Shown here: in pieces, positions 8,892 through 18,059 of the stretch
Layout: each line of letters starts with the position of its first letter
Position numbering within the stretch: the stretch's first letter is position 1
From: an uncultured Ruminococcus sp.
Lineage (GTDB): Bacteria > Bacillota > Clostridia > Oscillospirales > CAG-272
Assembly: GCA_902778145.1 (NCBI GenBank)
Contig: CACYWW010000006.1
Span: forward strand, 1 to 59,468
Reading direction: 5' to 3'
Length of the DNA: 59,468 bases
The notes under the pieces: generated by a model
Databases searched by the model: none
Seen by the model: the letters and a program-made list of their open reading frames with translations, nothing else
Told to the model about the DNA's origin: nothing
Position numbers and translations under genes: made by a program

Positions 8892-9077
8892 AAAAGAAAA
8901 AGGAAGTGAGAGACTGTGGACAACTGCGACGGTAATCCCCGAAGTACCGGGTACGGTATAACAGAAGACGGTGCGCTGTGGTCCGCGGTCGGACCCTGAT
9001 TTTTGCGTCCGTTTTTTGAAGTACCGTCGATCATCAAAGCGGCGGTTTTTGTTTTGCCGGAAATAACGGAGGTTTTT
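8892..9077 (+). promoter_or_regulatory. Structured mgtE leader with alternative hairpins (riboswitch-like, class unknown)
   Basis: A leader of about 185 bases without a protein-like frame. GGTCCG (8980-8985) pairs with CGGACC (8990-8995), while CGGAC (8990-8994) can instead pair with GTCCG (9007-9011), which is followed by TTTTTT (9012-9017). These two folds exclude each other, the usual logic of an antiterminator and terminator. A second stem, ACCGTC (9023-9028) with GGCGGT (9041-9046), is followed by TTTTTGTTTT, and its left arm can alternatively pair with ACGGTA at 8953-8958. GAAGTACCG occurs twice (8941, 9018). I do not recognise the M-box consensus that often precedes mgtE. Confidence 0.5.
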
Positions 9078-10604
9078 ATGGAAAACGAGAAAGAGAAAAA
9101 AACGGAAGAGATAGAAGAGTTAGGACCCGTCAAGGAGCCGGAGACGGAAGAAAAAGAGGAAGAAAAAGAGGAGGAAGAGGTGGACTTCACCTCCGAACAG
9201 GATTACGTCGGCGAGATCATCGGGCTTATCAGATCCGGGATCCCGGATGAAGAGCTTGTCAAAAAGCTGAGCGACTACCACGAAAACGATATCGCCGGCG
9301 CGTTTGAGCAGCTCGAGCCGGAGGAACGCCAGCATCTGTACAACATTCTCGGCGCGGAGCAGTTCTCCGAGATATTCGCATACGTTGAGAACGTCGAGCA
9401 GTACATAGAGGAAATGGGCGTCAAGACCGCGGCAAAGGTCCTTGAAAACATGGACTCGGACGACGCGGTAGACATACTCGACGAGATAGACGACGAGACG
9501 GAGAAGAAGATCGTCAGCCTGATGGACGAGGAGAGCAGCCAGGACATACAGCTCATACGTTCATATGACGACGACGAGATAGGCAGCCGCCTCACCACCA
9601 ATTTCATACTCATAAAAAACGACCTGACGATCAAGCAGGCGATGAGCTCGCTGATCGAGCAGGCGGGAGAAAACGACAATATTTCAACGATCTACGTCGA
9701 GGACGAGGATGAGCGTTTCTACGGGGCGATAGCTCTGAACGACCTGATCCGCGCTCGCGTTCAGGACGAGCTTGAACCGCTGATCAGTACGTCGTACCCG
9801 TACGTCACCGACCACGAAAAGATATCCGATTGTCTTGAACGTATACGTGAGTACACGGAGGATTCGTTCCCGGTGCTTTCCGAGGACGGCAAAGTGCTCG
9901 GAATAATCACCGCGCAGGACATAGTCGAGGTAGTCGACGAGGAATTCGGAGAAGACTACGCAAAGCTGGCAGGTCTTACCGCGGAAGAGGATCTGAACGA
10001 ACCGATAAAGGCGAGCATAAAGAAAAGGATCCCGTGGCTCATAACGCTGCTTTTCCTCGGACTCATAGTCTCCTCCGCCATCGGTATATTCGAGGACAAG
10101 GTCGTGGCGCTGCTGCCGATCATCGCGGTGTTCCAGTCGATGGTCTTCGATATGGCGGGCAACACCGGCACGCAGTCCCTTGCCGTCACGATACGTGTCC
10201 TGATGGACGAGGGCGTTGACAGAAAACAGAAGGCAAAGCTCGTATTCAAAGAGGTCCGCGTCGGCTTCTGCAACGGTCTGATCCTCGGAAGCGCGGCGTT
10301 CGTCGTCGTGGGGCTTTATATCCTCGCGTTCAAGAGGCCCGAGATGCTCAATATGCCTTTGGCGCAGTACGCGTTCACTATATCCGGATGTATCGCCTTT
10401 TCGCTGTTCATAGCCATGATCATAGCGTCGCTCGTCGGTACGACTATACCGATGGTACTGCATAAGATCGGCATCGACCCGGCGGTCGCCTCCGGCCCCA
10501 TGATCACGACGGTAAACGACCTGATAGCCACAATGGTCTACTACGGTCTCGCGCTCGCGCTTCTCATAAACGCGTTCCATATGGGAACGACTGTCGCAGT
10601 ATAG
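9078..10604 (+). CDS. mgtE: MgtE-family magnesium transporter/channel
   Basis: 508 residues. After an unusually acidic, Glu/Lys-rich N-terminus (about 1-40) come the MgtE N-domain (about 45-150, with repeated x-L-x-x-M-D-x-D-D-A-V-D-I-L-D), a pair of CBS domains (about 177-300) and a five-helix pore domain (about 315-508) carrying the conserved AGNTGTQSLA segment. The N and CBS domains sense cytoplasmic Mg2+ and close the pore. The ATG at 9078 follows ACGGAGG; a TTG further upstream lies inside the leader hairpins and is rejected. An isomerase-like gene follows after ten bases. Confidence 0.93.
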   Translation: MENEKEKKTEEIEELGPVKEPETEEKEEEKEEEEVDFTSEQDYVGEIIGLIRSGIPDEELVKKLSDYHENDIAGAFEQLEPEERQHLYNILGAEQFSEIFAYVENVEQYIEEMGVKTAAKVLENMDSDDAVDILDEIDDETEKKIVSLMDEESSQDIQLIRSYDDDEIGSRLTTNFILIKNDLTIKQAMSSLIEQAGENDNISTIYVEDEDERFYGAIALNDLIRARVQDELEPLISTSYPYVTDHEKISDCLERIREYTEDSFPVLSEDGKVLGIITAQDIVEVVDEEFGEDYAKLAGLTAEEDLNEPIKASIKKRIPWLITLLFLGLIVSSAIGIFEDKVVALLPIIAVFQSMVFDMAGNTGTQSLAVTIRVLMDEGVDRKQKAKLVFKEVRVGFCNGLILGSAAFVVVGLYILAFKRPEMLNMPLAQYAFTISGCIAFSLFIAMIIASLVGTTIPMVLHKIGIDPAVASGPMITTVNDLIATMVYYGLALALLINAFHMGTTVAV

Positions 10605-10614
10605 GAGGGTCATC

Positions 10615-11490
10615 ATGCTGTTATCAACACAAACACAGGCGCTTCAGGGAAAATTCGGCTACGAAGGCGCTGTAAGGATGCTCGCCCGTGCGGGATACGA
10701 CGCGTACGATATGTCGCTTTTCCATCCGCTCAGCGCCGACGATCCGCTTTACGGAGAGGGATACATTGAATACGCTGAGGAGCTGAAACGCATCTCAAAG
10801 GAAGCCGGAATAGTCTGCAATCAGGCGCACGCGCCGTTCCCTTCAAGCACGGGAGAGCAGGCGCAGGACAAAAAGATCTTCGACAGTATAGTCCACGCGA
10901 TGCACATAGCCTCTATCCTCGGCGCAAAGTGCATCATAGTCCATCCGAAGCAGCATCTCCCGTACCGTGAGAACGCGGAGGAGCTGAAACGGATAAATAA
11001 TGAGTTTTACAAGAGCCTGATCCCGTACTGTGAGAAGTACGATATAAACGTCGCGGTCGAGAATATGTGGCAGATGAACCCGATAGGCAGAAAGACGATA
11101 GTTGACAGCACCTGCTCGCGCGTTGAGGAATTCTGCGAATACGTGGATATGCAGAACAGTCCGCGCATCGTCGCGTGCCTCGATATCGGTCACGTTTCGC
11201 TCTGCGGCGAGGATATGGCGACGATGATCCGCGGCCTCGGCGGAAAACGCCTGAAAGCTCTCCACGTTCACGACACGGACGGTTACCGCGATCTGCACAC
11301 ACTCCCGTTCACGAGCGAAAACGATTTTGCGCTGATAATGCGTCTTTTTGCGGAGATCGGATACGAGGGCGATCTGACGTTTGAGGCGGATCACTTCTAT
11401 CACGGCTTCCCCGCGGAAATGTACGCCGACGTCGCGGAATTTATGCAGAAAACCGGACGTCAGCTGATCCGTATGATGAAAACGGAATAA
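10615..11490 (+). CDS. Xylose-isomerase-like TIM-barrel sugar phosphate isomerase/epimerase
   Basis: 291 residues, the full length of an AP-endonuclease-2-type barrel. Likely metal ligands sit at the ends of strands in VAVENM, CLDIGH, HVHDTD and LTFEADH, and there is a conserved IVHP segment. Such enzymes isomerise or epimerise sugars or inositols, or act as lyases; the substrate is not predictable. It starts ten bases after mgtE with GGAGGG and so shares its transcript, an unexpected partner for a magnesium channel. Confidence 0.82.
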   Translation: MLLSTQTQALQGKFGYEGAVRMLARAGYDAYDMSLFHPLSADDPLYGEGYIEYAEELKRISKEAGIVCNQAHAPFPSSTGEQAQDKKIFDSIVHAMHIASILGAKCIIVHPKQHLPYRENAEELKRINNEFYKSLIPYCEKYDINVAVENMWQMNPIGRKTIVDSTCSRVEEFCEYVDMQNSPRIVACLDIGHVSLCGEDMATMIRGLGGKRLKALHVHDTDGYRDLHTLPFTSENDFALIMRLFAEIGYEGDLTFEADHFYHGFPAEMYADVAEFMQKTGRQLIRMMKTE

Positions 11491-11498
11491 GAAAAAGA

Positions 11499-11674
11499 GC
11501 TAAATTCGCCTTGCGGCGAGCTAAATCGGGCGCTGCCCGGCTAAATTTGCTTCGCAAGCTAAATTCGGCTTCGCCGAGCTTACAGGCGAATTTAATTTAG
11601 CTGAAGCCGTGGGCTTCAATTTAGCTGTACGCCGACAGGCGTATAATTTAGCTGCCGCAAAGCGGCAATTTAGC
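11499..11674. repeat. Symmetric hairpin array (four GCTAAATT and four AATTTAGC linkers)
   Basis: Four forward linkers start at 11499, 11520 (seven of eight bases), 11540 and 11558. Four reverse-complement linkers start at 11594, 11618, 11645 and 11667. Each interval holds a short perfect hairpin: TCGCC/GGCGA, CGGGC/GCCCG, TTGC/GCAA, TCGGC/GCCGA, GAAGCC/GGCTTC, TACGCC/GGCGTA, GCCGC/GCGGC. The linkers can pair in nested order, giving a stem interrupted by four-way junctions with a hairpin on both sides. It lies in the 3' region of the mgtE transcript, before a bidirectional terminator. No coding potential seen. Confidence 0.85.
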
Positions 11675-11706
11675 AGATTATTTTCAAACATTTAAAAAGT
11701 GAAAAA

Positions 11707-17752: not shown

Positions 17753-18059
17753 GCTTGATGTGCGATGAGGCGGGAGGTTGCCGTTGATCAAAACGGGTTT
17801 TTCCGCGGAGTATGTCCGATTTTAAAACCGGGCGCAAAGAATTTACGAGCAGAATGACGGATCTTACGGGATATTCCCCGGCCATTTCATAAGCCGGCGG
17901 CAATCCGCAGGGGATCGGAGATCATTTACCCGGAGCTTGTTTTGAATGCCAAAACAATATCCGGTTTTCATAAGGGAAGAGGGCGAAACACCCGAAACCG
18001 TGTTTGCAAAATTCTTTAAAGCCCTTTTAAATCACAAAATTTAAAAGGAGGAAAACAAA
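17753..18059 (+). promoter_or_regulatory. Long untranslated leader of the S10 operon
   Basis: About 307 bases between the inferred start site and rpsJ. It holds GC-rich pairing segments such as GCCGGCGG near 17892 and several short complementary runs, but no stem followed by a T-run. A 30-codon frame starting at ATG 17765 lacks protein-like features and is not called. Leaders of ribosomal operons often bind a ribosomal protein for feedback; here that is inference only. Confidence 0.45.

Follow-up and report, generated by a model that had tools for sequence, protein, structure and literature searches.

The array at positions 11499-11674 of the window (the whole stretch of 59,468 nucleotides that was analysed) is a copy of a dispersed mobile element rather than a lone new RNA, and its plan is related to that of Gut-1 RNA. 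Taken as a whole, our reading is that the array is the body of an element that is linked to S23 proteins and inserts into terminator loops, here in a truncated copy that lacks ends and genes; we consider this reading likely. Today, the window copy probably forms a passive structured part of a 3' UTR. We found no description of the element in the titles and abstract openings searched (bioRxiv and most subscription journals lay outside this search).

The initial annotation described a linker that occurs four times and is then followed by four copies of its reverse complement, with a hairpin in each interval. Its coordinates for the array are exact. On the + strand, three of the four linkers are exact copies of GCTAAATT (11499, 11540 and 11558), and the fourth, at 11520, is a variant with one change, GCTAAATC. 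The four reverse complements of GCTAAATT (11594, 11618, 11645 and 11667) are all exact. Counting both orientations, the window contains eight exact matches to GCTAAATT, seven of them within the array, compared with 1.3 expected; none of 100 shuffles reached eight. The hairpins, too, are present in the intervals of the window array (CGCC..GGCG, CGGGC..GCCCG, TGC..GCA, CGGC..GCCG, GAAGCC..GGCTTC, ACGCC..GGCGT and GCCGC..GCGGC). In many sister copies, the last ladder interval holds a direct repeat, GCGAGC..GCGAGC, and no hairpin. The central interval includes AGGCGAATTTA, 11 nucleotides that are perfectly complementary to the first linker plus the start of its hairpin. The array starts 8 nucleotides past the stop codon of an ORF (10615-11490) that sits 3' of a putative mgtE gene (ORF 9003-10604). 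The features of this region are as follows.

10615-11490, + strand: upstream ORF, 291 amino acids, putative sugar isomerase/epimerase-like (by eye)
11499-11674, + strand: ladder of four linker-hairpin units with four inverted units opposite
11499-11506, + strand: linker L1, GCTAAATT
11507-11518, + strand: hairpin 1, CGCCTTGCGGCG; its 5' side and L1 are also complementary to the centre
11520-11527, + strand: linker L2, the variant GCTAAATC
11527-11539, + strand: hairpin 2, CGGGCGCTGCCCG
11540-11547, + strand: linker L3
11548-11556, + strand: hairpin 3, TGCTTCGCA
11558-11565, + strand: linker L4
11566-11576, + strand: hairpin 4, CGGCTTCGCCG
11577-11593, + strand: centre; together with R1 contains AGGCGAATTTA, which is complementary to L1 plus the beginning of hairpin 1
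11594-11601, - strand: inverted linker R1
11603-11617, + strand: hairpin 5, GAAGCCGTGGGCTTC
11618-11625, - strand: inverted linker R2
11627-11644, + strand: hairpin 6, GTACGCCGACAGGCGTAT
11645-11652, - strand: inverted linker R3
11654-11666, + strand: hairpin 7, GCCGCAAAGCGGC
11667-11674, - strand: inverted linker R4
11675-11693, + strand: remnant of an S23 gene leader, AGATTATTTTCAAACATTT, 19 nucleotides, found unchanged in full copies L084 and L083
11711-11752, + strand: intrinsic terminator-like hairpin and T-run 3' of the array, seen in the sequence

Elsewhere in the window, an S10-Clostridia ribosomal protein leader (RF03136, 48.8 bits) is located at 17756-17835 on the + strand.

The region 11490-11680 is predicted to fold stably on either strand (z-scores of -6.15 for the + strand and -6.74 for the - strand), and none of 200 shuffles was as stable. 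The nested ladder that had been proposed lies near the thermodynamic prediction for RNA: the energy of the window array is -85.3 kcal/mol with the ladder forced, -86.1 kcal/mol for the minimum free energy structure and -56.9 kcal/mol with all linkers unpaired. The predicted probabilities of rungs are 0.93 for linker 1 with linker 8 and 0.96 for linker 2 with linker 7. Linkers 3 and 4, however, compete for partners in this model, and in place of neat four-way junctions it shows partial pairing between the outer hairpins. DNA parameters likewise yield a ladder-like fold (-56.4, versus -30.3 with linkers barred). We regard the ladder as supported as a predicted fold.

The initial annotation knew of no class of RNA or family of repeats built in this way. 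This view does not hold, because the array belongs to a dispersed repeat family, and the layout of its left arm resembles that of Gut-1 in Rfam. The genome search that had been suggested found 78 occurrences of the linker-gap-linker pattern (33 forward and 45 reverse), versus one for a reversed control. Searches with the array gave 37 matches in its own genome at E<=1, and 19 separate array places were counted, including that of the window; hairpins and their order are mostly conserved among these places. This family, called family A, has arrays in all 12 genomes of the genus and in two of 27 relatives outside it (G014 and G033).

The initial observation was right, and comparison of copies shows that the symmetry of the array is meaningful. 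Among 41 copies with 400 bases available on each side, the commonest form has four linkers facing four (20 copies), and linker numbers are equal in 21; the remaining copies have 2 to 12 left-hand and 2 to 7 right-hand linkers. Of 102 distinct hairpin units, 59 have four or more end pairs, versus 2.8 (maximum 7) when letters are shuffled. Covariation was assessed in an alignment (A2) of 24 of the 26 four-plus-four copies, which does not include L092 and one of the two copies at L213. It was counted on the left-hand hairpins, the right-hand ones being misaligned by MAFFT. In the four left hairpins, 12 of 16 pairs vary on both sides and 97.6% of cells pair, both values far above every shuffle and every slid register. 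Thus, the comparison across relatives that had been named as a check reveals compensatory changes in the left hairpins. Given these changes and the prevalence of the four-plus-four form, the symmetry is not accidental. Linkers are nearly invariant within family A.

Full copies of the element consist, in order, of an end hairpin, the ladder, an S23 gene, a second ORF (ORF2) and another end hairpin. Some complete copies, not all, include S23 and ORF2. In many copies, the left end is the hairpin GCGGTGTACTTC..GAAGTACACCGC, and the right end is the hairpin AACCCACTATGACACTTTC..GAAAGATGTCAAAGTGGGTT followed by the terminal sequence ..CCTCTCCC. A second form of the left end hairpin, GGGGCGTCCTCC..GGAAGACGCCCC, occurs in L041 and L042, with similar pairing and a different sequence. 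The right end has 116 matches across the 12 genomes of the genus, part of which are second-strand matches of one hairpin. Among complete family-A copies with both ends, only two (G011 contig 31 and G003 contig 126) enclose S23 together with ORF2; a third gene-bearing copy, on contig 23 of the window's own genome, is cut by the contig end. Short copies outnumber gene-bearing ones. The window copy has neither end, neither S23 nor ORF2, and continues into other sequence after the 19-nucleotide leader remnant.

The family-A S23 protein has 125 amino acids and belongs to the four-helix S23/23S_rRNA_IVP group (PF05635, 1.5e-28; TIGR02436, 3.3e-32; scored on the G011 copy). The protein encoded by ORF2 has 148 amino acids and is without a clear family, with no Pfam match up to E 1 and no PDB match up to E 10. 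A likeness to pyroglutamyl-peptidase appeared only at E 0.13, and the ORF was left unnamed. The ORF 3' of S23 varies by locus (L084, at 2051-2497, L099, L101, L303, L308 and L312); putative acetyltransferase-like and kinase-like proteins were recognized by eye among these ORFs, which are perhaps cargo. Gene-bearing copies carry S23 and ORF2 only, many ends being cut by contig edges, and no transposase, recombinase or reverse transcriptase is found within the element in these copies. Because no gene for a mover was found, its route of movement is inferred.

Complete copies occupy the loops of intrinsic terminators. We found 76 distinct right ends and analysed the 33 elements with a resolved left end and enough flanking sequence; the other 43 were excluded, having no resolved left end. 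In these 33 elements, an A-run and a G+C-rich arm tend to close the left flank, and the complementary arm and a T-run tend to open the right one. With 0 to 7 loop bases allowed per side, the longest uninterrupted complement of the arms averages 10.5 bp, versus 4.1 bp for re-dealt flanks (the largest of 500 means was 5.2). Arms reach at least 8 bp in 25 of the 33 elements, versus 3.8 among re-dealt flanks (largest 9), and are under 8 bp in the other 8. Position -2 from the left end is a T in all 33 elements. The base N beside the left end recurs immediately past the right end in 29 elements of the 33, compared with 9.3 expected and at most 19 in 2000 shuffles. The elements without a repeated N are L011, L138, L162 and L177, of which L138, whose arms do not match, may be a chimera. 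In the 15 of 33 elements tested, which were chosen for long arms, the ladder did not improve the predicted pairing between arms across the insert (0.91, versus 0.88 for shuffled inserts).

Orthologous sites lead to the same conclusion. The array occupies the place where orthologues of the upstream ORF (10615-11490) have a plain terminator: this is so in six of nine other genomes (G011, G009, G010, G005, G003 and G008). In G011, the plain terminator TAAGAAAAGGACCTCTTTGGTCCTTTTT stands in place of the array and both flanks are alike; the other five have different plain terminators and are alike in the upstream gene only. Of the remaining three genomes, G002 has AAAAAACGCCG followed by a family-A copy that points the opposite way, G004 contains 2.9 kb of other DNA, and G006 shares the right flank alone. 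At the site of the copy on contig 45, a plain terminator is present in G011, G004 and G006, such that three of six compared stretches are readable as empty. At the contig-29 site, G011 has AAAAAAAACGGCGCGACCGCCGTTTTTTT between flanks that are 86% alike, and one of five stretches is clearly empty. None of four stretches is clearly empty at site L001. Empty sites, matching arms and the repeated TN together indicate insertion in terminator loops, with TN as a probable 2-bp target duplication. Since the window copy lacks ends, insertion at its own site is inferred from the orthologues.

These sites also bear on whether the array might be a vertically kept regulatory RNA, or a bidirectional terminator or attenuator of the upstream operon. 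Its stable fold on both strands, its covarying hairpins and its place 3' of a possible operon are as such an RNA would have them. The plain terminator in six of nine other genomes, and the opposite-orientation copy in one, are not; moreover, copies follow unrelated genes, and hairpin sequences track the family, not the site. This explanation is already disfavoured, and we consider it very improbable.

Insertion in terminator loops follows the same logic as the replacement of rRNA tetraloops by intervening sequences (IVSs), in another transcript. In Coxiella, IVSs encoding S23 replaced small tetraloops of rRNA, as described in PMC4990558. IVSs of 23S rRNA with S23 (PF05635/TIGR02436; PMC4990558) are likewise small, contain an S23 ORF, replace a hairpin loop and adopt an extended stem-loop fold. 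Full family-A copies also code for PF05635/TIGR02436, the window copy being without the gene, and they likewise occupy the hairpin loop and keep the stem. Unlike rRNA IVSs, which reside in a helix of 23S rRNA, the 33 resolved copies are intergenic, at A-run and T-run flanks. Family A further differs in being multicopy, in entering terminators of many genes, in its linker-hairpin ladder and in that most copies lack a gene.

Defined ends and a target duplication are also features of ordinary transposon derivatives. MITEs, BOX and RUP elements are short, mostly non-coding, dispersed and structured repeats with defined ends and target duplication. Family A resembles them in its short, dispersed, structured copies, defined ends and duplicated TN (29 of 33). 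It differs in that no parent transposase was met in its copies, and in its terminator loops, modular ladder and link to S23. It is conceivable that the element is an ordinary MITE, moved by a DDE- or HUH-type transposase that is coded elsewhere, makes a 2-bp duplication and itself prefers terminators, with S23 and ORF2 as passengers. In agreement with this idea, the two ends share CGTAARGAAGWAC in inverted sense (by eye), TN is found at both ends, and short copies are more numerous than gene-bearing ones. However, the longest of the 33 two-ended elements is 1213 bp, too short to hold a transposase in addition to S23 and ORF2. This limit on length covers 33 of the 76 right ends; of the other 43, 36 have under 320 bases before the right end. 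An ordinary MITE also leaves unexplained the other linker families before S23 genes and the co-occurrence of Gut-1 and S23 among genomes, both described below. We consider this explanation unlikely.

The best Rfam match to the left arm in the window (11497-11570) is Gut-1 (RF01706), with 25.3 bits and an E-value of 0.0077, which is below the gathering score of 50. The plan of Gut-1, three hairpins split by a constant linker, is found in this arm with a different linker sequence. Gut-1 RNA resembles the window ladder in having short constant linkers (UGAAAU) between small hairpins of changing sequence; the window ladder differs in its linker, GCUAAAUU, and in its score of 25.3 bits versus the gathering score of 50. 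The Rfam model, with 77 nucleotides, corresponds to one arm, which is here accompanied by a facing arm, terminator sites and sometimes an S23 gene. Weinberg et al. 2010 (PMC2864571) rate Gut-1 as "certainly" an RNA, list it as not cis-regulatory and give it for human gut only. No role for Gut-1 was found in the literature searched.

Gut-1 matches and S23 genes are found together at two levels. Among the S23 loci scanned, 13 of 30 (2 of 10 and 11 of 20) reach the Gut-1 gathering score, and the matches cover the ladders: left arms are matched on the + strand and, in some cases, right arms on the - strand. Gut-1 is present in 64 of 147 genomes from the order (called at E<=0.001; 52 of the 64 exceed the gathering cut-off), S23 in 71, both in 55 and neither in 67. 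This co-occurrence has an odds ratio of 25.6 (p = 1.4e-16), with kinship ignored. S23 is absent in 9 of the 64 Gut-1 genomes, and some of the metagenome-assembled genomes (MAGs) are incomplete. In 14 control genomes, Gut-1 had one match (E. coli), under the cut-off.

By strict scripted criteria, 17 of the best 30 Gut-1 loci start only a few bases away from a perfect terminator hairpin with its T-run. Facing arms are present in 12 of 15 loci that were read. S23 is present in the available DNA of 2 of these 30 loci and in none of the other 28, so most of these copies are gene-less. A stem, GCACTTGC..GCAAGTGC (L321, L324, L325 and L347) or CGACAGATTCC..GGAATCTGTCG (L323, L326, L327 and L341), recurs beside Gut-1 ladders. 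Because these two terminator stems appear in different genomes, the terminator may travel with the element.

Ladders with other linkers occur at S23 loci beyond family A. PF05635 has eight matches in the window's own genome, some in 9 of the 12 genomes of the genus and none in the 14 control genomes, and family-A linkers are present at 5 of 30 S23 loci in the genus. At L104 and L111, S23 lies behind a ladder in which the linker CGTGAAGTG faces ACTTCAC, located after tRNA terminators; L116 has the left arm only. The element in these three loci begins right past an intact tRNA terminator (..TTTTCAACTAAG..), and in L099 and L101 S23 genes are also found downstream of tRNA genes. These tRNA-side families are placed after the T-run, not inside the loop. 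At L120, TCATAATT and AATTATGA flank the S23 gene on either side. A clear ladder is absent at L106 and L114, two of the six non-family-A loci of the genus that were read.

We also scanned S23 relatives in named genomes by alignment, using the best 80 of 574, many from MAGs of ruminant-gut Clostridia. Among these best 80 of 574, an 8-mer occurs at least five times (both strands) within 500 bp of S23 in 32, versus 4 in the largest of 20 shuffles, and at least four times in 53, versus 33 when shuffled; 27 have no word repeated more than three times. A tRNA or tmRNA gene ends within 600 bp upstream of S23 in 46 of the same best 80, always on the same strand. In 14 S23 loci that were read, linkers differ (ATGAAAT, TGAAATA, ATGAATTG, AGTGATGT, TGCGATAT, ATGAAGTT and others), and opposite each linker stands its own reverse complement, except at L293. 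There, upstream of S23, CGAGCGGAGCGAGC-like units with the linker ATATCGCG occur in a single orientation and in repeated blocks. In several of the 14, the start of the first unit is again complementary to the centre.

We take the linker differences between families to be both-sided change at the level of families. Such change would fit paired linkers, and would equally fit DNA sites read in both directions. The ladder could act at the DNA level, with linkers as binding sites in both directions and a cruciform serving a hairpin-cutting or single-stranded DNA mechanism, the RNA being irrelevant. Folds that are equally strong on both strands, the ladder-like fold under DNA parameters and the suitability of palindromic loops for insertion of single-stranded DNA speak for this possibility. 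Against it, several families have the ladder as leader of their S23 gene, and Gut-1 is considered "certainly" an RNA by its authors (PMC2864571). We view a purely DNA-level role as possible, if somewhat doubtful.

In the S23-linked reading that we prefer, S23 would bind the ladder, either as 5' leader RNA or as its DNA strand, and would help to move it in trans, acting on copies with and without the gene. The element would enter hairpin loops as the site of least harm, since both stem arms remain, which is also the case for S23-bearing intervening sequences of rRNA. Avd of diversity-generating retroelements is a four-helix protein of the S23 kind, and S23 is an Avd relative; unlike these retroelements, the family-A element contains no reverse transcriptase.

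A broader proposal, which we offer tentatively and with reservations, is that these copies represent a distinct class of mobile element, combining a ladder RNA with S23 as a mobility factor in trans and an undescribed route into or beside hairpins. Gut-1 would be half of a ladder, and the linker would be the address of a family. Targets would include the loops of terminators for the present family, the 3' side of tRNA terminators for its sister families and rRNA loops for classical IVSs. This reading links the Gut-1 RNA family and the S23 protein family to one kind of mobile element and, if true, gives a home to both. We know of no way of spreading for S23 proteins. With dozens of insertions and their empty sites, the question of how intervening sequences reach hairpin loops becomes testable. 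The terminators of these gut Clostridia have, on this evidence, been repeatedly invaded.

Several other carriers and movers were considered. The linker pattern is found in at least 120 viral-contig stretches, with a single match in each of the 80 listed, which we read as chance rather than phage carriage. Plasmids yielded 25 records of S23 relatives, all under 60% identity, the best located between hsdS and hsdR. This relative, L475, for which the PLSDB table gives no gene, lies in a type I restriction locus of a Monoglobus pectinilyticus plasmid. One reverse transcriptase, classified as UG26 by PADLOC, is present in 9 of the 12 genomes of the genus (8 over the cut-off, about 400-427 amino acids). 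Matches to it at 1e-10 occur in 14 of the 147 genomes of the order, and 11 of these 14 have Gut-1, such that it is somewhat commoner with Gut-1 (p = 0.009). It is unlikely to be a general mover, as 53 of 64 Gut-1 genomes are without it. The UG26-type enzyme is possibly a defence reverse transcriptase; its gene at G000 contig 5:108517-109698 (L354) adjoins a hydrolase gene that is the same in at least three genomes (G000, G004 and G006).
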